DNA of 20,640 bases, from assembly GCA_016463265.1 (NCBI GenBank), contig JAEMRP010000001.1, positions 5,993 through 26,632 of the forward strand, in the 5' to 3' direction. Origin of the DNA: Microbacteriaceae bacterium. Its GTDB lineage: Bacteria; Actinomycetota; Actinomycetes; Actinomycetales; Microbacteriaceae. Positions 1,893 to 20,359 of this stretch are shown piece by piece. A program made the translations under genes and the position numbers. How positions within the stretch are numbered: the first letter of the stretch is position 1; the number at the start of each line of letters is the position of its first letter. Below the pieces are notes generated by a model. It had not been told where the DNA came from. It made no database searches and worked only from the letters and a program-made list of their open reading frames with translations.

Positions 1893-3365
1893 CTAGGTAG
1901 GCCTAAACGAGTCGTGGGCCTCGGATTGTGAGTGCTTGAGCATGACATGTTGAAGCACCGAATACTCGTGGAGTGCTTCCGCGCTCATGTCCTTGCCAAA
2001 GCCACTTCCTTTGACACCACCGTGTGGCGCTTCAGAAGCGATGGGTAGGTGGTCATTTACCCAGGTCACTCCGGCTTCAATGGAGCCCGACACGCGTAAT
2101 GCCCGACCCACGTCTGCCGTCCATACTGACGAGGCAAGACCGTAGGCAGAATCGTTGGCCAACGCAATGGCTTCCTCCTCGGTGCTAAAGGGGATAGCAA
2201 CCAAAACAGGTCCAAAGATTTCCCGTTGAACCGCCTCATCCGTTTGCGCAAGTCCAGTGATCAGTGTCGGCTCAAAGTAATAGCCATCTCCTGGCACAGA
2301 CCTTCCCCCCGCGTGAATCGTCGCGCCACGGGCTCGAGCCTCGTCCACGAACGCCTGGACACGCGCCCGGTGGGCTTCAGAAATGAGGGGCCCTATGTCG
2401 GTGGACTCGTCCTCTGGGGAACCGACCTTGATTGCGGTCATGACTGCAGCGATCTCAGCGACAGCGGCATCAAAAACTGCCTGGTCGATGTAACAGCGGG
2501 TTGCGGCGGTGCAGTCTTGACCGCTGTTATACGTTGCGCCGAGCGCGAGCGCTCGGGCCATATCGGCGAGGTTCGCGTCGTCAAACACAATGGCCGGAGC
2601 TTTTCCGCCGAGTTCGAGGTGGACTCGCTTTGTTGTCTTAGAGGCAAGCTCCATGACGCGCGAGCCTGTGGTGCTCGAACCGGTGACCGACACCATCGAA
2701 ACGGCAGGGTGACTGGCGAGTAGCTCACCGACATCACCGCCGCCAGTGACAATATTGAGCACTCCTGCAGGTAAACCGGCCTCGAGGGCGAGCTCACCGA
2801 GGCGCAGTGTTGTCGAAGGAGTTTGCGGAGCGGGTTTGAGAACAACAGTGTTGCCAGCCGCAAGAGCGGGGCCAAACTTCCAAATGGCCATAATCAAAGG
2901 AAAATTCCAGGGAGCAATCCCCGCAACGACACCGAGCGGCCGTCGAATGAGGATTGAGGTGTAGCCCTTGGTGAGGGTTGCCGCTCCCGTCCCCTCGAGC
3001 GAACGCGCGGCTCCGGCAAAGAATCGGAGGTTGTCTACTCCAAACGGGATTTCGCCATCGCGCACCACCGAAACGGGCTTACCTGTTTCACGGACCTCAC
3101 ACCGGGTGAGCGTCTCGCTGTCTGCCTCGATGAGGTCAGCAAACCGAAGAAGCACTTGAGAGCGTTGCCCGGGCGTACGATCCTTCCACTCGGGGAAGGC
3201 AGCCTGGGCCGCATCGACCGCGTCGTTGACCTGACTCAACGAGGTTGCTCGATAGGGAAAGACATCGCCAGATTGCGCTGGGTTGATGCGCACAATCTCT
3301 TCTCCGGATCCCGCTACTCGGGTACCGGCAATGAGAGCCTGAAAGTCGATGGAGTTGCCCTTCAC
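1893..3365 (-). CDS. patD: Gamma-aminobutyraldehyde dehydrogenase (NAD(P)-dependent aldehyde dehydrogenase)
   Basis: 490 residues, full length for the aldehyde dehydrogenase superfamily. It oxidises an aldehyde, most likely 4-aminobutanal from putrescine, to the acid (GABA) in the cytoplasm. Visible catalytic residues are N154 (APWNFP), K177 (VVLKP), E251 (LELGGKAP) and the nucleophile C285 (SGQDCTAATR). The GQDCTA context, DNLRFFAGAARSLEG before the active site, and the HVMLKH ending all resemble E. coli PatD rather than succinate-semialdehyde or betaine aldehyde dehydrogenases. The start is GTG at 3365, sharing one base with the TAG stop of the upstream oxidoreductase (TAGTG), so translation is probably coupled; the Shine-Dalgarno sequence is weak. 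It is the last gene of the pot operon. Related omega-amino aldehydes are alternative substrates. Confidence 0.88.
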   Translation of the reverse strand: MKGNSIDFQALIAGTRVAGSGEEIVRINPAQSGDVFPYRATSLSQVNDAVDAAQAAFPEWKDRTPGQRSQVLLRFADLIEADSETLTRCEVRETGKPVSVVRDGEIPFGVDNLRFFAGAARSLEGTGAATLTKGYTSILIRRPLGVVAGIAPWNFPLIMAIWKFGPALAAGNTVVLKPAPQTPSTTLRLGELALEAGLPAGVLNIVTGGGDVGELLASHPAVSMVSVTGSSTTGSRVMELASKTTKRVHLELGGKAPAIVFDDANLADMARALALGATYNSGQDCTAATRCYIDQAVFDAAVAEIAAVMTAIKVGSPEDESTDIGPLISEAHRARVQAFVDEARARGATIHAGGRSVPGDGYYFEPTLITGLAQTDEAVQREIFGPVLVAIPFSTEEEAIALANDSAYGLASSVWTADVGRALRVSGSIEAGVTWVNDHLPIASEAPHGGVKGSGFGKDMSAEALHEYSVLQHVMLKHSQSEAHDSFRPT

Positions 3366-4762
3366 TAGCTGTTGAACCCAACTTTAAGGGAATCGAGAAG
3401 CCTCAGCCATAGGTTTCGTCGTCCCGTCTCGTCCTCTTTGACCAGCGACCACCTGGTGAACTGTACAAGCGGATAACGGAAAGGTTCGGGCGGGAACGGC
3501 AGTGGCTTTTGTGCCACCATCTCTAGCCTTCTCAGGGGCGACGACGCGTCATCCAACAGATCAAGTGCGGCTGTAGCACCGAACCTGGACGATCCTGTGC
3601 CAAGGCCAGTGAAGCCAAGTGCCGAGGCCACTCGACCCCCAAGCGCTGTCGAAAAGTAGGGGGTGAAACGGGATGTCGAATCAATGACACCAGCCCACTG
3701 GTATTCAAACCTGACCCCCTCCAGCTGGGGGAAGGTGTCGAAAAAATGCTTGGCGAGGAGGGTGTGTGATGCGTCTCGCACTTCGCGACGTGGCGAAGAG
3801 TCATCTCCGAAATAGTAGTTTGCGTCATACCCGCCCCACACAATACGGTTGTCGGCAGTTTTCCGGTAGTAGTGGAACTGGTTGCCGAGGTCTGTAAGCC
3901 CCTGGGATTCTCGCCAGCGAAGTGAGTCAAGGTGACCGGCAGACAGCGGTTCGGTGGCGAGCACATGGTCAAACAGAGGCAACACGCGCGCCTTTATTCC
4001 CCCGACCAGCGGGGAAAAGACGCTGGTGGCAAGGACCGCCTTGTGAGCGCGGAGGCGCCCCTGTGGCGCGACCAAGTCAAGCCCGGTCCGACGTGCCTGA
4101 AGAGCAGTAATTGGGGAGTGCTGGTAGAAGCGCACCCCGAGGTCCTGCGCAACTCGGACCATCCCAACCAGCATTTTTACTGGGTGAAACAGTCCACTCC
4201 CTGTTCTCACCCGAACACCTCCCAAATATGTCGGAGAAGCAACATCTTCTCGCATTTGCTCGGCGTCGAGTAACTCGGCCGCTTCCCCGAAACGGTTATT
4301 GATCTCGTATACGGCTTTCAGATGCTCCGCTTGAACCGGAGTGACCGCGATCGCAGTCTTGCCGCAATCAGACCATTCTGCATCGATGCCGTAGTCAGAG
4401 ATAAACGCACGTATTTGACGCATGTTTTCTCGCCCGAGCTCGACAAGAGTTGCCATGTCATCCGGCCACATGGCCTGACCGTGGGCGTGCCCGTGGGTCA
4501 GGCTTTCAGAAATGAAGCCGCCGTTTCGAGATGACGCGGCGTGGCCGAGGGTGTTTTTCTCCACAACGACCACGTCGCGCTCGGGCTGCCGAGTTTTGGC
4601 CAGAATCGCCGTCCATAACCCGGTGAACCCCGAGCCAACAACGGCCAGGTCCGTTTTTTGCTCGCCCGTGAGAGTCGGGAAATCCCAGTCGGTGGGAAAC
4701 GCATGAGCCCAGACAGACTGGCGCGTGGCATCGGCCAGGGATTTCTCCACCTCAGGAGGCAC
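3365..4762 (-). CDS. PuuB-like FAD-dependent amine oxidoreductase (DAO family)
   Basis: 465 residues. The N-terminal Rossmann dinucleotide-binding motif VVGSGFTGLW (G43, G45, G48) is followed by an acidic residue after VVVVEK (E68) and by ASSRNGGFISES, typical of the FAD-binding part of the DAO / PuuB / DadA family. In PuuB the reaction is oxidative deamination of gamma-glutamylputrescine to an aldehyde, using oxygen as acceptor. Here the product would feed the aldehyde dehydrogenase encoded immediately downstream. The start is GTG at 4762, with GGAG about 9 bases upstream, and it overlaps the end of potA by 11 bp. No gamma-glutamylputrescine synthetase (puuA) is present in the window, so the substrate may be a free polyamine or another imported amine. 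Amadori-compound or D-amino-acid oxidase activities are alternatives within the same fold. Confidence 0.78.
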   Translation of the reverse strand: MPPEVEKSLADATRQSVWAHAFPTDWDFPTLTGEQKTDLAVVGSGFTGLWTAILAKTRQPERDVVVVEKNTLGHAASSRNGGFISESLTHGHAHGQAMWPDDMATLVELGRENMRQIRAFISDYGIDAEWSDCGKTAIAVTPVQAEHLKAVYEINNRFGEAAELLDAEQMREDVASPTYLGGVRVRTGSGLFHPVKMLVGMVRVAQDLGVRFYQHSPITALQARRTGLDLVAPQGRLRAHKAVLATSVFSPLVGGIKARVLPLFDHVLATEPLSAGHLDSLRWRESQGLTDLGNQFHYYRKTADNRIVWGGYDANYYFGDDSSPRREVRDASHTLLAKHFFDTFPQLEGVRFEYQWAGVIDSTSRFTPYFSTALGGRVASALGFTGLGTGSSRFGATAALDLLDDASSPLRRLEMVAQKPLPFPPEPFRYPLVQFTRWSLVKEDETGRRNLWLRLLDSLKVGFNS

Positions 4763-5786
4763 GAACTACCACTCCTGTGTCGCCTGCCCAAGAAATCTTC
4801 GTGGCGTCGCCGACACGGGGGACCTCAGAATTTCCCACCAGATACTTCACCGGAATTTCCAGGCCACACTCGGCAACGACCAAACAGTTTGGCCCATAAA
4901 AATTGGTACTGATTACCGTTCCCGTGATTGCCCCGGCTGGGGTTTGTGAGATGTCCTCCGGGCGAAGCATCAGCCATATCTCGGCGCCGTCTTCGGAGGG
5001 AAGTGAGCAGGGCACCTTGACGCCGTTGGTCAGGTGGAGGCGGCCAGAGGAGAGGTGGCCGCGGAGCAGCGTGCTCGTGCCGATGAAGTTGGCGACGAAC
5101 GGGTTACCGGGGTTTTTGTACAACTCCACGGGAGTTGCCACCTGCTCGACTCGCCCCTGATCCATGACCGCGATACGGTCTGCCATTGACATCGCTTCTT
5201 CCTGGTCGTGGGTGACCACCACGAAAGTGATTCCCACCTCGTGCTGGAGGCGCTTGAGTTCCAACTGCATGTCCTCCCGCACCTTGCGATCCAGTGCCGA
5301 CAGGGGTTCGTCGAGGAGAAGAATTTTGGGCCGCTTAACAATGGCCCGAGCGAGAGCAACCCGTTGTTTTTGGCCCCCGGACAATTGGTGAGTCCTGCGT
5401 GTTGCCATGTCCCCCAGACCTACCGTCGCCAGCAGCGAGGTCACCCTCTCGGCAATCTCACCCTGCGGACGCTTTTCTCTGCGCAACCCGTAGGCGACGT
5501 TGTCAAAGACGGTCATGTGCGGAAAGAGCGCGTAGGACTGGAACATCAAGTTCACAGGCCTCTCATTGGGGGGCACGTCGGCGACATCCTGGCCATCGAG
5601 GACAATCTGCCCCGAGTCGAGAGATTCGAATCCGGCGAGGGCGCGCAACAGAGTGGTCTTGCCACTGCCCGATGGTCCGAGGATTGCAAAAAACTCGTTG
5701 GTGTGGATTTGGAGACTGACGTTGTCTAGAGCCGCAAGCTGGTCGAACGCTTTGGACACATTGTGGATATCAAGGAGGACTGTCAT
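4752..5786 (-). CDS. potA: Polyamine-type ABC transporter ATP-binding protein
   Basis: 344 residues. An ABC ATPase domain comes first: Walker A GPSGSGKT (37-44), Q-loop Q83, signature LSGGQ (135-139), Walker B ILLLDE with E160, and switch histidine H193. A C-terminal TOBE-type regulatory domain (about 270-340) follows, as in the spermidine/putrescine PotA and related importers. All catalytic residues are intact. ATG at 5786 overlaps the potC stop by 4 bp (ATGA), so translation is probably coupled. It energises the PotB/PotC channel at the inner face of the membrane. Confidence 0.92.
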   Translation of the reverse strand: MTVLLDIHNVSKAFDQLAALDNVSLQIHTNEFFAILGPSGSGKTTLLRALAGFESLDSGQIVLDGQDVADVPPNERPVNLMFQSYALFPHMTVFDNVAYGLRREKRPQGEIAERVTSLLATVGLGDMATRRTHQLSGGQKQRVALARAIVKRPKILLLDEPLSALDRKVREDMQLELKRLQHEVGITFVVVTHDQEEAMSMADRIAVMDQGRVEQVATPVELYKNPGNPFVANFIGTSTLLRGHLSSGRLHLTNGVKVPCSLPSEDGAEIWLMLRPEDISQTPAGAITGTVISTNFYGPNCLVVAECGLEIPVKYLVGNSEVPRVGDATKISWAGDTGVVVRAS

Positions 5787-6553
5787 ATCGATTGACTCAA
5801 CTTCACAGAGCGTTGGCTAATAAGGACGATGGCGACGCTGAACAACAAGACAAGGCTGGCGAGGGCATTGATTTCCGGCGTCACACCAAAGCGCACCATC
5901 GAGTAAATCACAATCGGCAGGGTCGGTGTGCTTGGGCCGTTGGTAAAGAACGTAATCACAAACTCATCGAACGACAAGGTGAACGCCAACAGCGCCCCCG
6001 CGATAATGGCCGGCATCAGGCTGGGCACCGTAACACGGAAGAACACCCCTCGTGGGGTATCTCCCAAATCGAGGGCTGCCTCTTCGAGGGCGGGATCAAT
6101 TTGGAGGATGCGTCCGCGGGCAATGGCCGCGACAAATGCCATACAAAAAATCGTGTGGCTAAGAATCACCGTGGTCAGGCCAAGTGGAAAGCTGATGGCG
6201 CTAAAAAGTGCCAGCAGGCCGATGGCCAGGGCGAGGTCGGGAATAATCGCTGGTGCCAGCGCCAGCGCCTGAACCGCGGACGACGTCGAGTGTCGGGTGA
6301 TGCCAATGGCCAACAGGACCCCGAGGACAACGGAGAGAATCATCGTCGACACGCCAACGATGAGGGAATTTCGAAGGCCCTCAAGCACACTGGCGTTGGC
6401 AAACAGTTCCGAGTACCACTTAGTGCTAAACCCGGTCCACTGGAAAGGAATCTTGGAGGCGTTGAACGACATCACAATGACGATGGCGATGGGGGCATAC
6501 AGAAAGAAACACACGGCTGCAAGGACCCAGCCGAGTTTGCCGACACCCGTCAT
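5783..6553 (-). CDS. potC: Polyamine-type ABC transporter permease
   Basis: 256 residues with about six hydrophobic helices. The EAA coupling loop, where the permease contacts the ATPase, is LEEAALDLGDTPRGVFFRV (about 156-174). FTLSFDEFVITFF near residue 210 is a hallmark of the PotC family. ATG at 6553 lies 2 bp after the potB stop. It pairs with PotB to form the translocation pore. The substrate is inferred from family and neighbours, not from the permease itself. Confidence 0.9.
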   Translation of the reverse strand: MTGVGKLGWVLAAVCFFLYAPIAIVIVMSFNASKIPFQWTGFSTKWYSELFANASVLEGLRNSLIVGVSTMILSVVLGVLLAIGITRHSTSSAVQALALAPAIIPDLALAIGLLALFSAISFPLGLTTVILSHTIFCMAFVAAIARGRILQIDPALEEAALDLGDTPRGVFFRVTVPSLMPAIIAGALLAFTLSFDEFVITFFTNGPSTPTLPIVIYSMVRFGVTPEINALASLVLLFSVAIVLISQRSVKLSQSI

Positions 6554-6555
6554 CG

Positions 6556-7446
6556 TCAGCCCTGCCCGAGAACTCGTTTAGTGATGCGCGCCTGCAGAGC
6601 AAACAACAGCACCAACATAACCACCATGGCTATTGCCAGAACGGATCCAAAAGGCCAATCCCGAGCTTTCAAGAACTGGTCGCGAATGAGGTTCCCCACC
6701 ATGACCGTCTTTCCCCCACCAAGCAGCTCGGGAACAATGAAGTTACCGACACTAGGCACGAACACAAAGACGCAACCCACCAGAGTTCCGGGAATGGCCA
6801 GGGGAAAAACTACCTGCCGGAGAGCAGTGAACCTGCTCGCGCCGAGGTCAATGGCCGCCTCGCGAAGGCTCGGGTCGATGCGGGAGAGCGCTGCATAGAT
6901 TGGCAACACCATGAGTGGCAGGTAGGCGTAGAGCAAGCCCATGACCACGGCGCCAGGCGTGTAGAGCAACGCCAGCGGGTCGGAAATGATTCCAAGCCCC
7001 AGTAATCCCTGGTTCAGAAGACCTTCTGAGCTCAGAAGGACAATCCAGGCATAGGTCCGTATCAGGAAGTTTGTCCAGAAGGGAAGAATAACCAGGACCA
7101 GAGCAATGTTTTGATGCTGCGGCTGAAGTTTCGTGATGGCTAGCGCAGTGGGAAAGCCAATTAGAAGAGCGAGCAGGGTAACAGTGGAAGAAAGGGCAAC
7201 TGAAGTGCCGAGGATTCCGACGTACAGGCTATCCAGGGCGCGAGCAAAGTTGTCGAGGGTCAGAGAATAAACGATCCCGCCGTACTGGCCCCTTTGGAAA
7301 AACGAATAGGTCGCGATGATGGCGACGGGTAGCACCATGAATGCAATGACATACCCCATCGCGGGGTAGAGAAAGATTCCCCGTGCGAAACGGGCGTGGC
7401 GTGTCTTGACGTCACGCCCGCTCGCACTGGTGTCCGTGGAGACCAA
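6556..7446 (-). CDS. potB: Polyamine-type ABC transporter permease
   Basis: 296 residues, with a short charged cytoplasmic N-terminus followed by about six membrane helices. The EAA loop reads LREAAIDLGASRFTALRQV (about 194-212), and PFWTNFLIRTYAW (about 122-134) is typical of PotB. The only workable start is TTG at 7446, placed immediately after the TAA of potD with no gap. There is no clear Shine-Dalgarno sequence, so translation probably depends on ribosomes terminating on potD. Confidence 0.9.
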   Translation of the reverse strand: MVSTDTSASGRDVKTRHARFARGIFLYPAMGYVIAFMVLPVAIIATYSFFQRGQYGGIVYSLTLDNFARALDSLYVGILGTSVALSSTVTLLALLIGFPTALAITKLQPQHQNIALVLVILPFWTNFLIRTYAWIVLLSSEGLLNQGLLGLGIISDPLALLYTPGAVVMGLLYAYLPLMVLPIYAALSRIDPSLREAAIDLGASRFTALRQVVFPLAIPGTLVGCVFVFVPSVGNFIVPELLGGGKTVMVGNLIRDQFLKARDWPFGSVLAIAMVVMLVLLFALQARITKRVLGQG

Positions 7447-8535
7447 TTAGCCGGAAGTGATTTCGGTTGCCAGCCGGGTGTACAGCGCAGCGGCGTTTCC
7501 AAGGTCAACCAAACCTTCGTAGCCGAGCAGTTGTGCAGCGGTGAAGCCCATGTTCGGGAAGTCCCCGACAAGACCCGGCAAGACCGCATCCATGGCGGCC
7601 TGATTGGGAACTTTGTAGAGGATGTTTTCCGCCACCCAGGCGTGGTTTGTCGGTTCGAGGATGAAGTTGATGAAGGCGTGAGCTGCTTCCTTGTTCTTCG
7701 AGGACTTCAACACCACCATCGTGTCTACCCACAGGTCGCTTCCTTCAGAGGGGACCACGAACTTGATGTCGGGGTTCTCAATGGTGCCGTAGTTGCACCA
7801 TCCGTCCCATGCGACAGTCATCACCGCTTCACCGCTGACAAGGCGGCTATAGAAGGTGGTGTCGTCATAGGCGAGGAGGTTGCCCTTCGCCTCGAGGAGA
7901 AGGTCTTTCACCTCGTTCATTTCACCCTCATCTTGCGTGTTTACCGAGTAACCCAACGCCTTTTGCGCGGGCAGCATCAGCCAACGTTCGGTGGCGAGCG
8001 CGGTTACTTTGCCCTTGTACATGTCGTCCGGACGCAAAAGGTCCATCCAACTGGTGGGCTCGTTCCCTGCCATCAAGTCACTCCGATAACAGATTCCCGT
8101 GGTTCCCCACGCGTAGGGCACAGAGAACTTGTTGCCCGGGTCGTAGGAGAGATTGTCGGCTTCTGGGGCGAGGTTCGCAAGGTTCGGTATCAGCGACTTG
8201 TCCAGTTCGTAGATGAGATCTTGGTTGGCTAGTGCCTGGGCAAACTGACCAGAGACGAAGGCGATGTCAATACCGGAGTCGCCCCCCGCGGTCAGTTTGG
8301 CCATAATCTCTTCGTTGGTGGCGTGGTTGGTAATCGTCATCGACGACCCCACTGCCTCTTCAAACGCCGTCGCGAGATCTTCTGGGTAGTAACCTGCCCA
8401 GTTGCTGACAACGAGATTTTGCGCGCTCAGGTCTGCGTTGGGGTCGAGTGGCTCGCTCCCGCCACCCGTGGCGCAGGCTCCCAGAAACAGTGTGGATCCC
8501 ACAAGAACGGAGAGACTGATAGTTGTCCTGCTCAT
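7447..8535 (-). CDS. potD: Polyamine-type substrate-binding lipoprotein
   Basis: 362 residues from ATG at 8535, which has GGAG about 8 bases upstream; the frame stays open to 8751, but those residues are not signal-peptide-like. A lipoprotein signal peptide ends at lipobox LGAC with C21 as the lipidated residue, so the protein is tethered outside the membrane. PotD hallmarks are NWAGYYP (45-51), PYAWGTTG (140-147) and LWVDTM with D271, which aligns with the carboxylate that holds an amine in E. coli PotD. The segment usually reading W-N/S-G-S/D is WDGWC (243-247) here, so the ligand may not be plain putrescine or spermidine. It is first in the operon potD-potB-potC-potA-oxidoreductase-patD. 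Confidence 0.88.
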   Translation of the reverse strand: MSRTTISLSVLVGSTLFLGACATGGGSEPLDPNADLSAQNLVVSNWAGYYPEDLATAFEEAVGSSMTITNHATNEEIMAKLTAGGDSGIDIAFVSGQFAQALANQDLIYELDKSLIPNLANLAPEADNLSYDPGNKFSVPYAWGTTGICYRSDLMAGNEPTSWMDLLRPDDMYKGKVTALATERWLMLPAQKALGYSVNTQDEGEMNEVKDLLLEAKGNLLAYDDTTFYSRLVSGEAVMTVAWDGWCNYGTIENPDIKFVVPSEGSDLWVDTMVVLKSSKNKEAAHAFINFILEPTNHAWVAENILYKVPNQAAMDAVLPGLVGDFPNMGFTAAQLLGYEGLVDLGNAAALYTRLATEITSG

Positions 8536-8575
8536 ATACCTGCTCCAATCAGTTCGGATTGAGTGTTTTGCCAAT

Positions 8576-8581
8576 CGTATA
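8576..8581 (-). promoter_or_regulatory. Possible -10 box of the potD operon
   Basis: On the minus strand the sequence reads TAACTATACG, giving TATACG at 8581-8576, about 40 bases upstream of the potD ATG at 8535. The -35 position is poorly conserved and is covered by the palindrome at 8591-8608, which would fit an activator-dependent or regulated promoter. On the plus strand I could not identify a convincing promoter for the glycosyltransferase. Confidence 0.3.
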
Positions 8582-8590
8582 GTTAAAGCT

Positions 8591-8608
8591 GTGGACTTAC
8601 TAGACCAC
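8591..8608. promoter_or_regulatory. Imperfect palindrome in the potD / glycosyltransferase divergent region
   Basis: The 18 bases from 8591 read GTGGaCT-tacT-AGaCCAC: six of the seven arm positions are complementary, with one A/A mismatch. It covers the place where the -35 box would lie if TATACG (8581-8576, minus strand) is the -10 of the potD promoter. That is a normal position for a repressor or dual-regulator operator. No regulator gene is present in the window, so the binding protein is unknown. Confidence 0.35.
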
Positions 8609-8779
8609 TGGCAACTAAAGCACGGCACAACACATGGCGACGTTCCGTCACGATCACCCGTGAGCAATGTAGCGGGGTGTGGCTTTTCTTTGGCATGATA
8701 GAAGCCACGATCAAGCCCACCTAACCTTCGGACAGGTGAGCCGTAATTCACGATGACGTGACAAGACGGGAGTACCGCT

Positions 8780-10087
8780 ATGGCCGAGAAGTTGACCGTT
8801 CTTTTCCTCCCCGAGTCCGCCTACGGGCCAACAAACCAGTGCATTGGCCTCGGGCACAAGCTGTTGCAGCGGGGCCACCGTGTGGTGTTCGCCGCGGAAT
8901 CGTCGTGGAAGGGAAAGCTCGAAGCTTTGGGGTTTGTCGAAGACTTGGTCGACTTGGCACCCCCTCCGGCCGACGGTGACGACCAGGATGCCGGACAGTT
9001 TTGGAAAGACTTCATCCGCGAGACGGCCCCAGAGTTCCGAAAGCCCACCATCGAGCAGTTGGAGACTTTCGTCAAGCCCACCTGGCAGGCCCTCATCGAC
9101 GGAGCAATGTATTGCGAACCACAGTTGAAGGCGATCATGGAGCGGGTCAAGCCCGACGTAGTGGTCGAAGACAACGTTCTGTGTTTCCCAGCCCTAATGA
9201 CCTCAGGAGCACCATTTGTTCGGATTGTCTCCTGTAATCCCCTGGAAATGAGGGGGCCAGACATCGCCCCGACGTTCTCGGGGTACGCGCAGGATAACAA
9301 GGGGCCCTGGCCAGCGTTTATCGACCAATACCGCAGCACCCACTTCGAGATGTGGAGCGCCTTCAACGAGTGGGTGCAGCAGCAGGGCGCACCAGCTCTG
9401 CCCGAGCTCGAGTTTATCCACGAGTCTGAGGTGGCAAACCTCTATGTCTACCCCAAAGAAGCCGATTACACAGATGTTCGGCCACTCGATGACACCTGGC
9501 ACCGCATGGATTCGAGCGTGCGGGAAACGGACGACAACTACCCACTACCAGAGAAGGTGCGCAACCGCCCAGAGGGCTCAGCCCTCATCTACCTGTCGCT
9601 TGGCTCTCTTGGCAGTGCCGACGTGGCACTCATGAAGCGGCTCGTGGATGTGCTGGGAACAACCCCGCACCGATTTGTCGTGAGCAAGGGGCCCCAGCAC
9701 AACGATTTCGAGTTAGCGGACAATATGGTGGGAGCAGAGTTCCTCCCCCAAACCACCATCATCAACCAGGTTGACCTGGTGATTACTCACGGTGGGAACA
9801 ACACCACGACCGAGTCTCTTCACTTCGGCAAGCCGATGATTGTGTTGCCCCTGTTCTGGGACCAGTACGACAACGCCCAGCGAATTCACGAACTGGGCTT
9901 CGGCATTCGTCTAGACACCTACTCCTTTAGCGACAAAGAGATGCTCAGTGCCCTCGACACTCTTCTGGGAGACCACGATTTGCGACAAAAACTTGTCGCG
10001 CAGGGCGAGCAAATCCGGGCCCGCGACGGGTTGTCGGTTGGGGCAAACGTCATCGAGTCAGTGGGGTTGGCCCATAAAAATAGGTAG
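8780..10087 (+). CDS. GT1 family glycosyltransferase (UGT/MGT-like, GT-B fold)
   Basis: 435 residues, ATG with GGGAG 7 bases upstream. The C-terminal donor domain carries the GT1 signature at about 335-368: ITHGGNNTTTESL, GKPMIVLPLFWDQ and YDNAQR, which binds the nucleotide sugar. The N-terminal acceptor domain has CIGLGHKLLQRGHRVVF (21-37), as in bacterial and arthropod UGTs. In those enzymes the preceding motif is GHxN, whose histidine is the catalytic base; here it reads GPTNQ (16-20), so the base appears replaced by P17. The cytoplasmic enzyme would move a sugar from a nucleotide donor to a small acceptor, or do the reverse; donor and acceptor are unknown. It is the first gene of a three-gene plus-strand cassette, divergent from potD. 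Confidence 0.85.
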   Translation: MAEKLTVLFLPESAYGPTNQCIGLGHKLLQRGHRVVFAAESSWKGKLEALGFVEDLVDLAPPPADGDDQDAGQFWKDFIRETAPEFRKPTIEQLETFVKPTWQALIDGAMYCEPQLKAIMERVKPDVVVEDNVLCFPALMTSGAPFVRIVSCNPLEMRGPDIAPTFSGYAQDNKGPWPAFIDQYRSTHFEMWSAFNEWVQQQGAPALPELEFIHESEVANLYVYPKEADYTDVRPLDDTWHRMDSSVRETDDNYPLPEKVRNRPEGSALIYLSLGSLGSADVALMKRLVDVLGTTPHRFVVSKGPQHNDFELADNMVGAEFLPQTTIINQVDLVITHGGNNTTTESLHFGKPMIVLPLFWDQYDNAQRIHELGFGIRLDTYSFSDKEMLSALDTLLGDHDLRQKLVAQGEQIRARDGLSVGANVIESVGLAHKNR

Positions 10088-11108
10088 TGCAATCGAAGCC
10101 AACCTTCTCCGCCGGCTCGTGCCACCGCATCGAGCCGGCGCAGTCGGTGACCAGGCTGGTGTCGTTGTGGATTGTTGGCCAGTGGATGACAACAGAGCCA
10201 TCTACCTCGTCGACCAGTCCGCCACAACCTTTGCGCTACCGATCATCGACGACGGGGAATTACGACGTGCTCGGGCCGGGGATTGTTTCATCACGGCCAT
10301 GCCGAGAGGCCACCACGGCAGTTTTTCCTCAACCATCAGACTCGATGCGCCAGTTGTCAGCGAAGAACGAATAGAGGTCGACCAAACAAACGAGTCGTTC
10401 GTGCTCAACAACACCTGGATTATCAAGTGGAACATGACGGTGGGGTCACACCGAACTCTTACCAAGGAGCGGCGTCTCAGCGCGCACAATTACCCGCACA
10501 CCCCAGCCCACTTCGGTCACATCACCTGGACTTCTCCAGACAATTCGGAACACTTACTTGCAGGAGTTCAAGAATTTCTCCCTGGTTCAGTAGACGGCTG
10601 GACCTGGTGTGTCGCACACGCGATGGAAAACCACTGCGAGACCTGGCCGGGGGCCCTTGGCGAAGTCGTTGCCCTCATGCACAACGCTTTTGATGGCACC
10701 ACGCTCGCTCACGGTGACTTGCACGTCGGCCAAATTCTCAACCAGGGTAATTCCTACTTCATCATCGACTTTGATGGCGATCCCCTCGGTCACACCCCAG
10801 AGTCGTGGCTTCAGGACGTGGTCGGCATGTTGTGCTCGTTTATTCACGTGGCGGCTGTCGCCGAGGTCAAATATCACGCGGCGCACAACTTCTCAGAGTG
10901 GGTGAGGATTGTTTCCGACCAGTTTCTCGAGACCTACCTCGCCACTCGGCCGTGGGTGAGCCTTCCTCCACGAGATCAGCTGCTGGCGTTGATGGCCCAC
11001 AAGGAAGTGACAGAAATGCTCTATGCAACCACGTATCTTCCCGAGTGGACATACGCAGCCGAGTATGGTCACGCTTTTGTAGAGAGGCTAATTGGTGAAA
11101 GCCAGTAA
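10038..11108 (+). CDS. Glucosamine-kinase-like sugar phosphotransferase (maltokinase/APH fold)
   Basis: About 356 residues if it starts at TTG 10038. Kinase motifs are intact. VDQTNES (10377-10397) followed by IIKW holds the presumed phosphate-binding lysine. HGDLHVGQIL (from 10710) is the catalytic-loop Brenner motif with the base D. IIDFDGDP (10761-10784) is the metal-binding DFD. EFLPGSVDGWTW and the C-terminal EVTEMLYATTYLPEW closely resemble what I remember of the actinobacterial glucosamine kinase GlcNK, and are less like maltokinase Mak1. Expected reaction: glucosamine + ATP -> glucosamine-6-phosphate. The start is uncertain: recognisable homology begins around SAIEANLLRRLVPPH, just after the glycosyltransferase stop, but no ATG or GTG with a ribosome site sits there; GTG 10119 is another option. 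It overlaps the SIS gene by 14 bp. Confidence 0.78.
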   Translation: MGQTSSSQWGWPIKIGSAIEANLLRRLVPPHRAGAVGDQAGVVVDCWPVDDNRAIYLVDQSATTFALPIIDDGELRRARAGDCFITAMPRGHHGSFSSTIRLDAPVVSEERIEVDQTNESFVLNNTWIIKWNMTVGSHRTLTKERRLSAHNYPHTPAHFGHITWTSPDNSEHLLAGVQEFLPGSVDGWTWCVAHAMENHCETWPGALGEVVALMHNAFDGTTLAHGDLHVGQILNQGNSYFIIDFDGDPLGHTPESWLQDVVGMLCSFIHVAAVAEVKYHAAHNFSEWVRIVSDQFLETYLATRPWVSLPPRDQLLALMAHKEVTEMLYATTYLPEWTYAAEYGHAFVERLIGESQ

Positions 11109-12024
11109 ATTCAGCGACGACCTACAGAAAAAAACCGACAACCTCGTGCGGCTGTCCGGCCACCAATTCGATTGGCCCGACCTCCGCGGCGAACGCGTGG
11201 TAATCGTCGGCATGGGTTCGTCGTATTTCCTTGGCCAGTGGTTCTCCCGTCGCCTTCAGATGTTGGGAATCAACGCCTTCGCGCTGTTAGCCAGTTCGCG
11301 GGATGTTCCGGTGTTGGCAGACTCGGATGTCGTCGTAGCCATTTCGGCGACTGGGCAGTCGCTCGAGACGGTGGCATTTGTCGACCGCGTCGACAGCCCT
11401 GTCTTTTTTTTGACTAATAATCCCGCACCACCAATCCACTCGCGTCACCACGTGGTCAGCATGCACAGCCTCCCGGAATCAGGCGGCGTGGCTAGCCTTA
11501 CCTACCAGGCAACAATCGCTGCCCTTCTAGACCTGGAACAACGCCTCACTGGGCAGATAGTCTCCGATAGTACTTTCATCACAGCCGCCGAAGCCACGAG
11601 CTGGATTATCGAGAACCAGGCGGACTGGCATAAAGAAATCCTCGAGCAGGTGACAGGGGGTGAGGGCATCCAGTTTGTGGCCCCGCTGGAGCGGCTTAGC
11701 TCAGCCCAGCAGAGTGCGTTGATGATCCGTGAGTGTCCAAGGATCCGAGCAGAATCCTCGGAGGCCGGCGACTGGGCGCACATCGATCTGTATTTGACAA
11801 AAAACCACGACCTGCGCGTGGTTCTTTTTGCGGGGTCACCCTGGCAAGAGCAAGTGTTGGATTGGACCACCGAGCGCAAGCGTCGGGTCGTGATGATTGG
11901 TGGCAACTCAGATCGAGTTGATTTCTCTCTGCGCTACCCCCACGATGATGACGAGCTTGTGGCCCTGCTCACCGAGACAACATTTGCCGAGTTAGTTGCA
12001 GCGAAACTGTGGAGTGAGCAGTGA
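11095..12024 (+). CDS. Stand-alone double-SIS-domain protein, GlmS-isomerase-like (probable amino-sugar phosphate deaminase/isomerase)
   Basis: 309 residues from GTG at 11095, with AGAGAGG 7 bases upstream; a TTG one codon earlier is possible. Two SIS domains are visible. The first has GMGSSYFLG (39-47) and ISATGQSLET (83-92), the phosphosugar-binding Ser/Thr loops. The second contains RECPRIRAESSEAGDWAH (212-229), matching the GlmS isomerase pattern AExxxAGxxxH. The N-terminal glutaminase domain of GlmS is absent, so it cannot draw ammonia from glutamine. Relatives of this form deaminate glucosamine-6-phosphate (archaeal GlmD, AgaS) or cleave glycated amines (FrlB). Translationally coupled to the kinase, it would most simply turn glucosamine-6-P into fructose-6-P and ammonia; cleavage of a sugar-amine conjugate is an alternative. 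Confidence 0.82.
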   Translation: MKASKFSDDLQKKTDNLVRLSGHQFDWPDLRGERVVIVGMGSSYFLGQWFSRRLQMLGINAFALLASSRDVPVLADSDVVVAISATGQSLETVAFVDRVDSPVFFLTNNPAPPIHSRHHVVSMHSLPESGGVASLTYQATIAALLDLEQRLTGQIVSDSTFITAAEATSWIIENQADWHKEILEQVTGGEGIQFVAPLERLSSAQQSALMIRECPRIRAESSEAGDWAHIDLYLTKNHDLRVVLFAGSPWQEQVLDWTTERKRRVVMIGGNSDRVDFSLRYPHDDDELVALLTETTFAELVAAKLWSEQ

Positions 12025-12306: not shown

Positions 12307-12379
<73 letters not shown>

Positions 12380-12387
12380 CAGAAACA

Positions 12388-12457: not shown

Positions 12458-14020
12458 TTATTGTTGCACGTGACGGCGACGCAGGCTTCGCCGTAACACG
12501 ACCGCCACACCCAGCAGGCTTGCCGCGATCCCGATCGAAATGGCTGAAACCGAGGTGTTTCCGCCCGTGGTCGCGAGCGCCGAAGTGGAATCCGCCGAAT
12601 CCGAACCTGAGCCGCCTCCAGAGCCACCACTACCACCGCCACCGCTCTTGATTGCCCAACGAGTTTGAATGATGTCGTTGAATCCGTTGTAGTAATACCA
12701 AATGGCTACGGTTTGCCCGTTGTTTGAGATGCTCACGTCCTGGTAATAGGAGTCAACACCGTCGTTTGAAAGCTGCTCAACAGGTGCCCACTCTGCGCCG
12801 CCGTCATACGACGAGCGAGAATGCACAAGGATGTCGCTGCCGGTGTCACGCCTCCAAACGGCAACCGTGACGTCGGTATCGCTCATGCTCACTTGAGGAT
12901 ATTCACTGTCTCGTCCTGGGTCGGATAAACTCTGGACGGCTTGCCAGTTGATTCCTCCATCGATAGACGTTCGAGTTTGCACGATTTTGTTGATGCCGTC
13001 ACTCCGTGACCAGATAACGACGGTGTGACCAAGAGAATTAATCTCCACCTGAGCATCGCCAGCGGACTGCGCACCCGCGGAAAGATCCGGTGCCGAGGAC
13101 CACGTGTTTCCAGCGTTAATTGAATAGCCGGCTTGAATGATGTCATTGCTTCCGTTACTCCGCTTCCACACGGCAACCGCCTGGCCCGCATCGTTCAGGC
13201 TCACCTGGGGGTTGTCCGCAGAGTGTCCAGCAGCGGATAAATTCTCTACTCCAGACCAGGTCTGGCCACCGTCAGTTGAGCGACGCGCTTGGATGATGTC
13301 ATTGCTTCCGTCGTTACGCTTCCACACAACTACTGCTTGACCAACTGAATTGAGACTCACCTGGGGGTTCCCCGCGTTCTGGAGTGTGGCGGATATAGTC
13401 GCGACCGAAGACCACGTCAGTCCACCGTTAGTCGAATAAGAAGTTTGAATAGTGTCGTTACTTCCGTTACTCCGCTTCCACACGGCAACCGCCTGGCCCG
13501 CATCGTTGAGGCCCAGCACCGGATCCCATGCTGCTTCCCCCCCGTCAGCAAAAAGAGGTTCTACGCCAGACCACGTTTGGCCACCGTCAATTGAACGATT
13601 CGACCGGATTACCCCATCGTTCCAGGACCGCCAGACAACAGCGACAGTCTCATTGTTATTAATCACCACCTGGGAATTATCGGTATCCTCAGCGCCAATT
13701 GATGAGATCTTGGTGACGGCCGACCATGTCGTTGAACCATTGAGCAAATAGCGCGTCTGTACGACGTTCGCGGTTCCGTCAAAGCGCGACCACACTGCAA
13801 CAGCGTTTCCATTGTCGTTCACGCTCACGAGTGGCCGGATAGATGTCTGGCCCGGGGCGGACAGGTCAAACGGATCAGACCACGGGGTGCCAAGCGCAGC
13901 AGCGGGTGAAATTCCCGAGAGGACGCCCGGTATCACGCCAACGGTGACTGCCGACGCGAAGCCAACGCCCGTCAGTACAGCGACAACCGTTCGCAACGAC
14001 AAAGATTTAGGGGTTTTCAC
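12458..14020 (-). CDS. Secreted LAxTG-anchored beta-propeller protein with eight sialidase/Asp-box-like repeats
   Basis: 520 residues from GTG at 14020. An N-terminal signal peptide (about 1-42, ending near SPAAALG) sends it out of the cell. Residues about 45-455 are repeats of roughly 52 residues, each with QVSLNxxGQAVAVWxRxxG, then SxDGGxTWS, an Asp-box-like turn. There are seven complete units. The N-terminal WSDPFDLS and the C-terminal half unit together make an eighth, the usual velcro closure of a propeller. A Gly/Ser-rich linker (about 457-475) follows, then LATTG (482-486), a hydrophobic helix (about 491-509) and RRSLRRR: a sorting signal of the LAxTG type used by class E sortases. 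Catalytic sialidase residues are not evident, so binding or adhesion is more likely than hydrolysis. Confidence 0.82.
   Translation of the reverse strand: MKTPKSLSLRTVVAVLTGVGFASAVTVGVIPGVLSGISPAAALGTPWSDPFDLSAPGQTSIRPLVSVNDNGNAVAVWSRFDGTANVVQTRYLLNGSTTWSAVTKISSIGAEDTDNSQVVINNNETVAVVWRSWNDGVIRSNRSIDGGQTWSGVEPLFADGGEAAWDPVLGLNDAGQAVAVWKRSNGSNDTIQTSYSTNGGLTWSSVATISATLQNAGNPQVSLNSVGQAVVVWKRNDGSNDIIQARRSTDGGQTWSGVENLSAAGHSADNPQVSLNDAGQAVAVWKRSNGSNDIIQAGYSINAGNTWSSAPDLSAGAQSAGDAQVEINSLGHTVVIWSRSDGINKIVQTRTSIDGGINWQAVQSLSDPGRDSEYPQVSMSDTDVTVAVWRRDTGSDILVHSRSSYDGGAEWAPVEQLSNDGVDSYYQDVSISNNGQTVAIWYYYNGFNDIIQTRWAIKSGGGGSGGSGGGSGSDSADSTSALATTGGNTSVSAISIGIAASLLGVAVVLRRSLRRRHVQQ
13149..13507. repeat. Near-identical repeats inside the propeller gene with a 312-bp period
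   Basis: The 47 bases at 13149-13195 recur exactly at 13461-13507. Between them, around 13300-13350, lies a more diverged copy. The 312-bp spacing equals two 156-bp (52-residue) blade units, so blades 3 and 5 match each other better than blade 4. Blades 2 and 4 also share SxDGGQTWSGVE at near-identical DNA. This points to duplication of, or conversion between, two-blade units. Confidence 0.85.
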
Positions 14021-14140: not shown

Positions 14141-14683
14141 ATGTCCTATCCGCTTTTGACCCCGCGCCTCAGCATTGAACCCCTAGCGCTGCGAGACGTG
14201 GACGAATTCGTCCGGTACAGGCAGGACCCGGAAATCGCTCGCTATCAGAGCTGGGACATGAACTATTCGGCACAACAAGGCCTGCACCTCGTTCAGTCAC
14301 AGGCGGATGTTGTGCTGCCTGCGCCGGGTAACTGGTTGCAACTAGCAATTCATGACCGTGAGACCGGCGAACTGCTTGGCGATTTAGCGTTGCACACCAT
14401 CGACACCGCCGAACTTTCGTTTGAGATTGGCTTCACATTAGCGACCAAAAATCAAGGAAACGGCATCGCCCGCGAAGCCACTCGCCGACTTCTCGATTTC
14501 CTGTTCGACGAAGTGGGGGCGATCTGGGTTTGCGCGAGCTGCGACAGTCGCAATTCACCGTCAATCGCGTTACTTCTGGCGCTTGGCTTTGAAAATCGTC
14601 CGACCGAAAGCTGGACCGAGATCTTCAAAGGTGAATCAATTGTCGTGAACTACTTCGGAACTAGCCCATCAACACGTCGTTGA
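14141..14683 (+). CDS. GNAT family N-acetyltransferase (RimJ/RimL type)
   Basis: 180 residues from ATG at 14141; the frame is open further upstream but without family resemblance. The opening TPRLSIEPLALRDVDEF is typical of the RimJ/RimL subfamily. Later come ELLGDLALHTID, ELSFEIGFTLATKNQGNGIA (the acetyl-CoA pyrophosphate-binding loop Q/N-G-x-G-x-A) and CDSRNSPSIALLLALGFE (the C-terminal coenzyme A-binding helix). It would transfer an acetyl group from acetyl-CoA to a protein N-terminus or a small amine; the substrate cannot be told. It converges on the UbiA-like gene and overlaps it by 23 bp. Confidence 0.85.
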   Translation: MSYPLLTPRLSIEPLALRDVDEFVRYRQDPEIARYQSWDMNYSAQQGLHLVQSQADVVLPAPGNWLQLAIHDRETGELLGDLALHTIDTAELSFEIGFTLATKNQGNGIAREATRRLLDFLFDEVGAIWVCASCDSRNSPSIALLLALGFENRPTESWTEIFKGESIVVNYFGTSPSTRR

Positions 14684-15356
14684 TGACGACGCCGAGACAC
14701 GCTACTCCGACAATGACGAGAACCACGACCAGAACCCCCGAACGACGTTTGCCAAGCGAGACGGCGAGCCCACCCCAACCGGTTTCGCGGTCGATGTCGA
14801 TGTCGGGAATCGCGTTGAGCAGGTGCGCGGTCACCCCCACAAGAACGCTGAGCGCAATCAACGGGAATGATGGCCACAGAGTTGGCGAACTCGCCTGCGC
14901 GATGAACGCCGGCATCAGAGCGAACGACACTGCATACGGGACCCATGACCAGACCGTTCGAGCAAGGAAAAAGTTGTAAACAAGTGCGCTCGCGACGGCC
15001 GCGATGTGTGCGGCACCACCGACCCACCCTGCGGCGAAAAATGACAGCGTAATCGTCAGTGTCGCGCTGAGCAGGATTGGCAGGCGAAGGTCTTCGGGTC
15101 GCAGGTCGCCTCGGACCGTCGGTTTATTGGAGCGTCCCGCCGCGCGATCCGCCGCCGCATCGTGCACGTCGTTCGTCCAGCCAACAGTTGCCTGGCCGGC
15201 CGCGCTGGCAAGAAACACGAGAGCGACACTCGACCACGAACCACCGCACAGCGCGGTCGATACGGTCATGAGCAGGACCATCGCGAGTGCTTGCGGAAAA
15301 TGCGTCGCGGCAACATACGCGCGAAGTCGAGTCCCTCGGGGCGATTTCTTGACCAC
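14661..15356 (-). CDS. UbiA-family membrane prenyltransferase-like protein
   Basis: 231 residues with about seven to eight hydrophobic helices, shorter than the usual 280-300. It has both aspartate-rich motifs of the family: N62-D63-VH-D66-AAA-D70 (GWTNDVHDAAAD) and PDIDIDRETGWGG with D185, D187 and D189, which bind Mg-diphosphate. These enzymes join a prenyl chain to an aromatic or other acceptor in the membrane. The acceptor is unknown, and no quinone or chlorophyll gene is nearby. The start is GTG at 15356 with a weak ribosome site, 27 bp after the CPBP-like gene, so it is probably the last gene of a cupin/CPBP/UbiA operon. Confidence 0.82.
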   Translation of the reverse strand: MVKKSPRGTRLRAYVAATHFPQALAMVLLMTVSTALCGGSWSSVALVFLASAAGQATVGWTNDVHDAAADRAAGRSNKPTVRGDLRPEDLRLPILLSATLTITLSFFAAGWVGGAAHIAAVASALVYNFFLARTVWSWVPYAVSFALMPAFIAQASSPTLWPSFPLIALSVLVGVTAHLLNAIPDIDIDRETGWGGLAVSLGKRRSGVLVVVLVIVGVACLGVVINDVLMG

Positions 15357-15383
15357 GGTCGGCAGACTAACAGTTCACGAAAG

Positions 15384-16244
15384 TCACGGCGCGGGCGGCG
15401 CTACGAAGAAGATCGGCAGCCACTCGGGATGGTGTGCATAGACGAGCACGAGAAAAACGACAACGTCAAAAAGCAGATGCACAGTGATTATGTACCACAC
15501 CGAGCGGCTCTTCTCGAAAATCCAGCCCTGAATCAAGGCGAAGGGCAGCGTGAGGGCTGGGCCCCACGACCGGTATCCCAGTTCCCATAAAAACGAGACG
15601 AAAACGATTGCCTGCAACACGTTCGCCGTCCAGAACGGGAAGTGGCGGCGCAACAGGGCGAAGACGATGCAGATGAAGAAGAGTTCGTCCCAAATTCCCA
15701 CGAATCCCACGCCAACGAACAGGCGGGCGATTTCGCTGGGCGTTTCGACCGCCGGCCAGTTCTGGTAACTCCCCGAGGTGATGAAATACACCGGCAGGAT
15801 GAGGTAGCCGAGCACGAGAACAGCGCCCAGCCACGCCCACTCGCCCCGCGACCACGGTTCACCTGGTCGGCCCGGGAACCGCACAACGTGATCGCGAAAA
15901 ACCCAACGGCTCATCACATAGGGAAAAACCACACAGAGCGTCAGAACAGAGCCCATCAGTGCGATGTTGCTCCACTCGAGGTTCGCCTCAATCGAGATAA
16001 AGCTGATGGCCACGAGGGGCACCGCAATGAGCGACAGGTCTCGTCCAAGAGCGCGGTTGTTCGTGAATGCGATTACCAAACCGATGGCGAGGGCCGCGTA
16101 CCCAATTCCCATGAACACGGGTATTCCCCGAGTTACGAAGAGCGCGGGAGCCGCCATAGCAATCAGAGTCGCAGCGACGAGCGCGCCACCGCCAAGGCTC
16201 TGCGGAGGGTTAATGTTCACTCCCCGCAGAATAACATCGCCCAA
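15384..16244 (-). CDS. Divergent CPBP-family (CAAX protease / Abi-like) membrane protein
   Basis: 286 residues, about eight hydrophobic segments. The C-terminal half has the layout of the CPBP family, but the motifs are altered. Motif 1, usually EExxxR, reads DELFFI in VGIWDELFFICIVFAL. Motif 2, usually FxxxH, reads FLWELGYRSW without the histidine. Motif 3 keeps HLLFD (HxxxD). Proteolytic activity is therefore doubtful. The start is uncertain: TTG at 16244 gives the longest product, GTG at 16220 is preceded by GGGGA but with almost no spacing. It lies 6 bp downstream of the cupin gene. Confidence 0.68.
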   Translation of the reverse strand: MGDVILRGVNINPPQSLGGGALVAATLIAMAAPALFVTRGIPVFMGIGYAALAIGLVIAFTNNRALGRDLSLIAVPLVAISFISIEANLEWSNIALMGSVLTLCVVFPYVMSRWVFRDHVVRFPGRPGEPWSRGEWAWLGAVLVLGYLILPVYFITSGSYQNWPAVETPSEIARLFVGVGFVGIWDELFFICIVFALLRRHFPFWTANVLQAIVFVSFLWELGYRSWGPALTLPFALIQGWIFEKSRSVWYIITVHLLFDVVVFLVLVYAHHPEWLPIFFVAPPAP

Positions 16245-16250
16245 TCGGCG

Positions 16251-16613
16251 TTAGGCCGAATAGACGACGTAGACCTTGCGAAGCTTCTCGTGGACCGTCC
16301 ACACGCCTTTCCAGCCAATCGGGAAATAGGCGGTGTCGCCAGCGGTGAGAGTAACGGGCTCGCCGCCGTCCTCTTCCACCGTCATGCGGCCAAACACTAC
16401 CGTGATGACCTCACCGGTGTCGGTGAATTCCCAACGCGACGTTCCGGGCTCGGATTCCCACGATCCCGACCACACGCCGTGGTCACTGTCCGCAAGATAG
16501 GACTTGTCGCGAACCACAATGTCGCCATTGATGGGGGTCGCCATCCGCGGGGCGAGAAGGGTTTCGGTGTAGTCGTCTGAATTGAGTTCGTCGGCACGAA
16601 AAACTGTTGTCAT
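16251..16613 (-). CDS. Small cupin-domain protein (cupin_3 / DUF861 type)
   Basis: 120 residues, a single beta-barrel domain. The pattern SRWEFTDTGEVITVVFGRMTVEED, then VTLTAGDTAYFPIGWKGVWTVHEKLRKVYVVY, is typical of the cupin_3 family. In that family the first metal-binding histidines are often replaced, as here, so metal-dependent catalysis cannot be assumed. ATG at 16613 with GGTGA about 7 bases upstream. It is probably the first gene of a three-gene run with the CPBP-like and UbiA-like genes. The role is unknown. Confidence 0.8.
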   Translation of the reverse strand: MTTVFRADELNSDDYTETLLAPRMATPINGDIVVRDKSYLADSDHGVWSGSWESEPGTSRWEFTDTGEVITVVFGRMTVEEDGGEPVTLTAGDTAYFPIGWKGVWTVHEKLRKVYVVYSA

Positions 16614-20322: not shown

Positions 20323-20359
20323 GATTATCAATTCAGTCTATGCATGGCAGAATTGCGCC

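Follow-up and report, generated by a model that had tools for sequence, protein, structure and literature searches.

Nine linked genes for amine uptake, amine oxidation, and amino-sugar-type processing recur in many actinobacteria and perhaps serve amine breakdown with a removable sugar tag

We analyzed a 20,640-nucleotide stretch (the window) of contig JAEMRP010000001.1, positions 5,993 to 26,632 of the forward strand, from a Microbacteriaceae draft genome (GCA_016463265.1; 252 contigs totaling 1,215,161 bases, with a completeness of 83.4%). Between positions 1893 and 12024 it carries a nine-gene unit that recurs in many actinobacteria and perhaps encodes amine breakdown by way of a sugar tag. 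Family calls for the encoded proteins were made with Pfam and NCBIfam profiles and their curated cut-offs. All nine open frames were confirmed, with the same order, strands, families, and coordinates as in a preliminary description of the window.

The minus-strand operon is compact, each frame overlapping the next or lying no more than 2 bases from it. Its first gene encodes a PotD-type binding lipoprotein (7447 to 8535; SBP_bac) with an altered ligand site, a member of a dedicated orthologue group. Two ATP-binding cassette (ABC) importer permeases follow, PotB type (6556 to 7446) and PotC type (5783 to 6553), both assigned to PF00528 (BPD_transp_1) and having PotB and PotC, respectively, as top NCBIfam matches below the cut-offs. 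The PotA-type importer ATPase (4752 to 5786) exceeds the cut-off for the potA subfamily, TIGR01187 (369 bits versus 356). The PuuB-like flavin adenine dinucleotide amine oxidase of the DAO family (3365 to 4762; PF01266) shares 29% identity with Escherichia coli PuuB over 402 residues, a level that speaks for homology and not for activity. The PatD-type aminoaldehyde dehydrogenase (1893 to 3365; PF00171, Aldedh) matches E. coli PatD at 50% identity and PuuC at 39%; it reaches the cut-off of PRK13473, aminobutyraldehyde dehydrogenase (646.2 bits; cut-off, 615), and not that of TIGR03374 (529.8 of 909.3 bits). On the plus strand lie a GT1 glycosyltransferase (UDPGT/MGT) with a proline, Pro17, at the position of the catalytic histidine (8780 to 10087), a glucosamine-kinase-family (maltokinase-like) kinase with a GlcN_kinase match (about 10080 to 11108, the start being approximate), and a SIS family protein resembling the GlmS isomerase and glucosamine-6-phosphate deaminases (11092 to 12024). 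The last two frames overlap by 17 bases.

The two transcripts diverge from a control region between the PotD ATG and GT1. The PotD open frame extends to 8751, and the ATG that precedes its lipoprotein-like signal lies at 8535, leaving the 244 bp (8536 to 8779) originally reported. This gap is too short for a TetR gene, and no inverted repeat was found in it at the settings used. Among 80 named loci (described below), a TetR gene was present in 47 of the 54 with Pot genes versus 4 of the remaining 26. A close relative of the window cluster, in the record "actinobacterium acMicro-4" (L070), has no TetR gene and is 89 to 98% identical gene by gene. Two of the 15 genomes of the genus, a set with several incomplete members, contained GT1, and one of the two was a contig-edge fragment (97%); the cluster thus looks patchily distributed.

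To follow linkage outside the genus, we collected the best 80 of at least 570 relatives matched by GT1 alignment. In 44 of these named loci, at least 8.5 kb was available on either side of GT1; the other 36, in which the record or locus ended within 8.5 kb, were set aside. The kinase and SIS genes were present in 41 of the 44 uncensored loci, joined by at least three Pot genes in 38 and by PatD as well in 34. The oxidase was linked in 20 of the 44, and all nine genes were found together in 14. The Pot genes never occurred without kinase and SIS (0/44). The six exceptions comprised three loci with GT1 and potD only (L139, L140, and L142) and three with only the GT1-kinase-SIS trio (L093, L146, and L147). 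When all 80 loci were counted, kinase and SIS were present in 70 and Pot in 54, Pot without kinase and SIS in 4, kinase and SIS without Pot in 20, and all nine genes in 16.

GT1 does not belong to one side of the cluster. In the 52 loci that carry GT1, kinase, and SIS together with PotB or PotC, it shared the strand of kinase and SIS in 33 and that of Pot in 19. In the order sample, potD-B-C-A, GT1, PatD, and the oxidase share a strand opposite that of kinase-SIS in three genomes (G054, G099, and G281), so that GT1 lies on the amine-operon side there and with kinase and SIS in the window; the switch between transcripts is seen in loci L058 to L060. This sample of 297 genomes contained SIS in 5 (E value of 1e-10) and GT1 in 6 (E value of 1e-40), the 6 including all 5 (Fisher test, 3e-10). 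G049 carries the trio only. In G171, the sixth GT1 genome, GT1, TetR, and potD-B-C-A share a 4.9-kb contig that ends within GT1. A family distance correlation gave r values of 0.46 to 0.95 for all 36 gene pairs; it ignores species kinship and was given little weight.

The set is conserved elsewhere beyond chance, and we consider it very likely that the nine genes form one system. The gene neighborhoods bear out the co-occurrence of the two halves, and the single system proposed at the outset stands with the qualification that its parts can separate. The other possibility raised then, two unrelated modules traveling together, is disfavored, since the halves co-occur and GT1 is found on either side.

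By record title, the hosts include metagenome-assembled genomes (MAGs) named Nanopelagicales or Actinomycetota, Nocardioides, Mumia, Georgenia, Streptosporangium, and Nonomuraea. Five Mycolicibacterium-named records carry the trio without Pot (5/5), some being cut by record ends. A MAG labeled Chloroflexi (L103) has Pot, GT1, PatD, kinase, and SIS, suggesting interphylum transfer or an error of binning or naming. Whole or partial clusters labeled as a Bifidobacterium breve MAG (L076, L086, L088, L090, and L096) closely resemble the other MAG loci, and these labels seem doubtful. In L139, L140, and L142 (Herbidospora and Acrocarpospora), potD lies beside GT1 near positions 8700 to 11280, and of the system only these two are found within 10 kb.

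The phylum sample, a less biased one (396 genomes, overlapping the order sample; SIS cut-off E value of 1e-15), showed which parts are most constant. GT1 was present in 42 genomes and SIS in 13, and GT1 occurred in all 13 SIS genomes (Fisher test, 3e-14). Pot genes accompanied GT1 or SIS in 6 of the 13 (G000, G054, G331, G413, G466, and G481; parts of the cluster lie on two contigs in G466 and G331). Of the 29 GT1 genomes without SIS, two represented by short fragments (G346 and G530) were left out of the context count, and none of the other 27 had Pot genes at 45% identity or more (Fisher test, 4e-4 versus 6/13); a distant Pot set in G476 (33 to 44% identity) was not counted. In G392 the kinase lies close to a contig end, and SIS was not seen. 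Given GT1 in 13/13 and Pot in 6/13 SIS genomes, the trio is a stable core, with the amine genes as a frequent, inconstant partner.

The GT1 clade extends beyond the system, and some GT1 genes without SIS also have neighbors of amine or aldehyde metabolism. For example, GT1 lies beside a PatD relative (54 to 58% identity) in L198, L204, and L218, with SIS not found in the genome; beside an oxidase-like gene in L203, L206, and L216 (DAO domain confirmed for L216); beside an oxidase-like gene plus a distant Pot set in L202; and near a molybdopterin aldehyde-oxidase-like gene in L207, L208, L212, and L217 (domain confirmed for L208). Many others have no recognized amine- or aldehyde-oxidizing neighbor. 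The occurrence of this GT1 clade beside such genes fits a role in amine chemistry.

The binding protein is specific to the system. A PotD search of 278 genomes of the order gave 18 hits in two classes, 4 at 63% identity or more (G000, G054, G099, and G171) and 14 at 35% or less. GT1 was present in all four genomes with an orthologue of the first class; the test of PotD against GT1 assumes at most 6 GT1 genomes among the 278, a number taken from the somewhat different draw of 297. The orthologue group is thus a dedicated binding protein, found only with this system among the 278 genomes. Its ligand site is changed as well. We take the polyamine ligands of E. coli PotD to be W34, E36, Y37, D168, E171, W229, W255, D257, and Y293. 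Relative to that protein, all 61 ungapped group members carry Thr, Trp, and Asp at the positions of D168, E171, and S211, respectively, and Gly or Ala replaces E36 in 53 of 62; W34, Y37, W229, D257, and W255 (Phe in 8) are retained. The window PotD has Gly, Thr, and Trp in place of E36, D168, and E171, respectively, with the other listed residues kept. Of the 14 distant hits, 8 had loci and were aligned, and none of the 8 shares the pattern. Because these contact residues are changed, the ligand is probably not an ordinary polyamine.

Like the binding protein, the glycosyltransferase departs from its canonical active site. It lacks the catalytic histidine that His-Asp dyad enzymes have in the N-terminal loop, and proline takes this position in all 85 aligned members (85/85). 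This proline was part of one of two patterns used to find the named loci, which are therefore biased in this respect; the order and phylum samples are not. In human UGT1A4, too, proline replaces the catalytic histidine. UGT1A4 acts on amines (PMC5075577). The closest solved structures to the window GT1 are UGT203A2 and UGT202A2. Asp361-Gln362, a pair typical of glucose-donor GT1 enzymes, is invariant in 31 of 31 GT1s. We take UGT203A2 and UGT202A2 to be spider mite enzymes of a family thought to have been acquired horizontally from bacteria; they retain the catalytic histidine, whereas the bacterial clade has proline there.

The window kinase is best regarded as a homologue of the glucosamine kinase GlcNK, for which glucosamine kinase activity should not be assumed; its GlcN_kinase score was 162 bits (cut-off, 550). 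The motif Q-R-E at positions 405, 408, and 409 occurs in 64 of 77 sequences (window included), and the exact consensus Q-x2-RE-x2-YA-x3-LP-x-W occurs in 53. The window sequence departs from this consensus, reading K..TE..YA...LP.W, and has D-x-H. Of these residues, Q405 and E409 make contact with the amino group of the sugar (PMC6520443). For the family member studied, the Km for glucosamine is weak, at 8 mM, so that glucosamine may be a stand-in for another amino sugar. Genes with internal stops or no end were excluded (72 of 76 kinase and 60 of 74 SIS genes kept), and the SIS comparison set (A2) comprised 35 of 43 non-redundant SIS genes plus that of the window. The SIS protein is nearest to glucosamine-6-phosphate deaminase by profile and to the GlmS isomerase by fold. 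When aligned by eye, it has equivalents of the catalytic Glu and His of GlmS, presumably E488 and H504 in GlmS numbering. It does not reach the curated scores of GlmD (34.3 of 580 bits) or glmS (31.1 of 418 bits); its similarity to FrlB, the fructoselysine-6-phosphate deglycase, is distant (hhalign probability, 86.5%), and the VIA matches listed for it are SIS-type proteins and glucokinase regulatory protein.

The oxidase is a common part that the system seems to recruit. Relatives were found in 89 of the 297 order genomes (E value of 1e-60). We viewed 22 such loci (44 to 49% identity), 20 picked from the better hits and one each in G049 and G171. PotA relatives were present in 9 and PatD relatives in 8 (at least 40% identity), and part of these loci look like ordinary amine breakdown. 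Six genomes whose cluster has no oxidase were checked, and all six have one homologue (45%) elsewhere. Two such clusters carry a Rieske oxygenase (VanA type) and an amidohydrolase beside PatD (L091, 1289 to 3877; L111, 1278 to 3953), a pair that perhaps opens a different amine. An ornithine aminotransferase gene lies near GT1 in six loci (L080, L083, L093, L099, L102, and L123), with PatD also in L080, L083, and L102. Found in two and six loci, respectively, neither is a general feature.

Taken together, the nine genes may encode amine catabolism with a removable sugar tag. The dedicated Pot-type ABC importer would take up an amine, probably not an ordinary polyamine, to which GT1 would attach a hexose; glucose donated by UDP-glucose is the probable one. 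At the amine end, the PuuB-like oxidase would produce an aldehyde, which PatD would turn into an acid. The kinase would phosphorylate C6 of the sugar, and the SIS protein would free hexose-6-phosphate together with the nitrogen, the latter in the form of ammonia or an amino acid. Besides the linkage data, the proline and Asp-Gln residues of GT1, the amino-group contacts of the kinase family, the resemblances of the SIS protein, and a GABA transaminase match in the source genome speak for this scheme. We prefer a version in which the oxidase would cleave the C-N bond of the glycosylated nitrogen so that an amino sugar, glucosylamine, remains; we place the oxidase there because this leaves an amino sugar for the glucosamine-kinase-like kinase and the deaminase-like SIS protein. 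We infer each chemical step, the order of the steps, and the identities of sugar and amine. Models in which GT1 adds the sugar are preferred because only these, among the models considered, give all nine genes a task, and in its preferred form the sugar-tag mechanism is a serious possibility that nonetheless falls somewhat short of even chances.

Several observations weigh against this mechanism. The window kinase has K-T-E in place of Q-R-E. When the GT1s of the phylum sample plus G171 were compared, Pro17 was found in all 37 with sequence at that position (two others have none there), whether or not the system was present, and was therefore rejected as a marker of the system. In 7 of the 13 SIS genomes, two of which (G424 and G550) are cut by contig ends, the trio had no visible Pot neighbors. 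Cluster membership of the oxidase would be expected if its substrate were a glycosylated amine, and it is linked in fewer than half of the uncensored loci. Since GT1, kinase, and SIS are all absent within 10 kb in each of the 22 oxidase-relative loci, the oxidase may act on a plain amine. Neither PuuA nor PuuD was detected in 126 loci including the window (E value of 1e-12; search confined to the loci). PuuA was also missing within 10 kb in all 22 ordinary oxidase loci, so a replacement of PuuA by GT1 cannot be read from context. Genes for glucosyl recycling were rejected as a companion of the cluster, as galU occurred in 1 and pgm in 0 of the 126 loci (E value of 1e-12).

The explanation first offered for the window, that the imported compound is itself an amino-sugar-amine conjugate, draws on the same binding protein. 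A glycated or N-substituted amino sugar would enter ready-made, the oxidase would yield an aldehyde and an amino sugar, PatD would convert the aldehyde to an acid, and kinase and SIS would give fructose-6-phosphate and ammonia. Thr, Trp, and Asp at PotD positions 168, 171, and 211 could suit a sugar, and in this respect the site, unlike that of a normal polyamine binder, agrees with the proposal. The resemblance of kinase and SIS to glucosamine kinase and glucosamine-6-phosphate deaminase, the kinase-plus-SIS precedent of fructoselysine catabolism by frlABCD, and oxidase relatives that function without GT1 are also in its favor. However, GT1, the constant companion of SIS, is left without a job, and we regard conjugate import as unlikely. 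If a sugar added by GT1 instead protected the far nitrogen of a diamine, as gamma-glutamyl does in the Puu pathway, the oxidase and PatD would act on the free end, and kinase and SIS would remove the sugar to give gamma-aminobutyric acid (GABA) and hexose-6-phosphate. A PuuB-like oxidase and an aldehyde dehydrogenase between tagging and untagging steps would be in place, and the source genome has a GABA transaminase match just above the cut-off (507.9 of 506.65). Yet PatD scores closer to the free-aminobutyraldehyde enzyme (646 bits) than to PuuC (345 bits), and the PotD site lacks residues that we take to bind further amines, which makes such protection decidedly unlikely.

A biosynthetic role would have kinase and SIS supply a sugar, GT1 attach it to an amine-derived product, and Pot and PatD supply the aglycone. 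The trio has been reported inside clusters predicted to be biosynthetic, where PGM and UDPGP accompany it in one species (PMC6520443), and we found a gene for an AMP-binding enzyme in 7 of 84 clustered loci. On the other hand, importer, oxidase, and PatD make up a catabolic set, no biosynthetic set recurs among the annotated recurrent neighbor families (not every family being annotated), and the carrier is a small 1.2-Mb draft genome; we judge this role improbable. Least credible, with only a slight chance of being correct, are two independent nitrogen-scavenging modules that share a regulator and a location. The trio genomes without nearby Pot genes and the ordinary oxidase loci, none of which carries the trio (0/22), would be expected of them, but GT1 switches transcripts, PotD orthologues always accompany GT1 (4/4), and no uncensored locus has Pot without kinase and SIS.

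Beyond the cluster, the window contains a tRNA-Lys (12307 to 12380) and, just past it on the minus strand, a gene for a protein with BNR (sialidase-like) repeats (12458 to 14020). UbiA prenyltransferase, CAAX-type protease, and EutQ-like cupin frames follow consecutively (14661 to 16613), and a tandem pair of overlapping ABC exporter-type half-transporter frames occupies positions 16692 to 20331 of the minus strand.

The preliminary description knew of no described pathway combining these nine genes. This holds for all nine in the literature that we searched, judged by titles and the starts of abstracts, but not for part of the set, as the GT1-GlcNK-SIS trio of Actinobacteria was described in mBio in 2019. 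There it was placed in biosynthetic clusters, and its kinase was characterized biochemically and structurally as a glucosamine kinase (PMC6520443). Window positions 8780 to 12024 contain the same three families in tight linkage, joined here by a Pot importer and PatD and, in many cases, by an amine oxidase. Only that paper among those found concerns the trio, and none links it to amine uptake; the main text of that paper never uses the word "polyamine," and it presents kinase, GT1, and SIS without an experimentally shown physiological role (PMC6520443). With the trio now tied to PatD and to an amine importer of its own, a function in breaking down amines can be tested directly in named strains, for example of Nonomuraea, Streptosporangium, Mumia, Nocardioides, or Georgenia.

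Other known systems share parts of this arrangement. The SIS protein of the cluster is far below the curated cut-offs of NagB-II, GlmD (34 of 580 bits), and the GlmS isomerase domain and belongs to a separate family. The frlABCD system likewise pairs a kinase with a SIS-type enzyme, but its kinase is of a different family, GT1 is not annotated in the frl locus, and the SIS protein of our cluster is nearer GlmS and glucosamine-6-phosphate deaminases. In fructoselysine breakdown, the SIS-type enzyme frees glucose-6-phosphate and the amine (PMC9609667). E. coli ydcSTUV-patD also places a Pot-like ABC importer beside PatD, with GT1, kinase, and SIS not annotated in the 6.5 kb viewed. The E. coli Puu pathway (puuA-E and puuP) is similar in its imported amine, PuuB-like oxidase, aldehyde dehydrogenase, and possibly GABA-type product. 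In contrast, the cluster has an ABC importer, an aldehyde dehydrogenase nearer to PatD than to PuuC, an added sugar module, and no PuuA or PuuD match in the 126 loci. If the sugar-tag idea is true, it represents a new logic for recovering nitrogen from amines and a new use of a GT1 enzyme without the catalytic histidine. We put forward, with rather more doubt than confidence, that amines are broken down here by a new route. An N-glycosyltransferase would load the amine on glucose, the carbon part would be oxidized off as aldehyde and acid, and kinase and SIS would recover hexose-6-phosphate and free the nitrogen, with sugar as the carrier in the role that gamma-glutamate has in known pathways.

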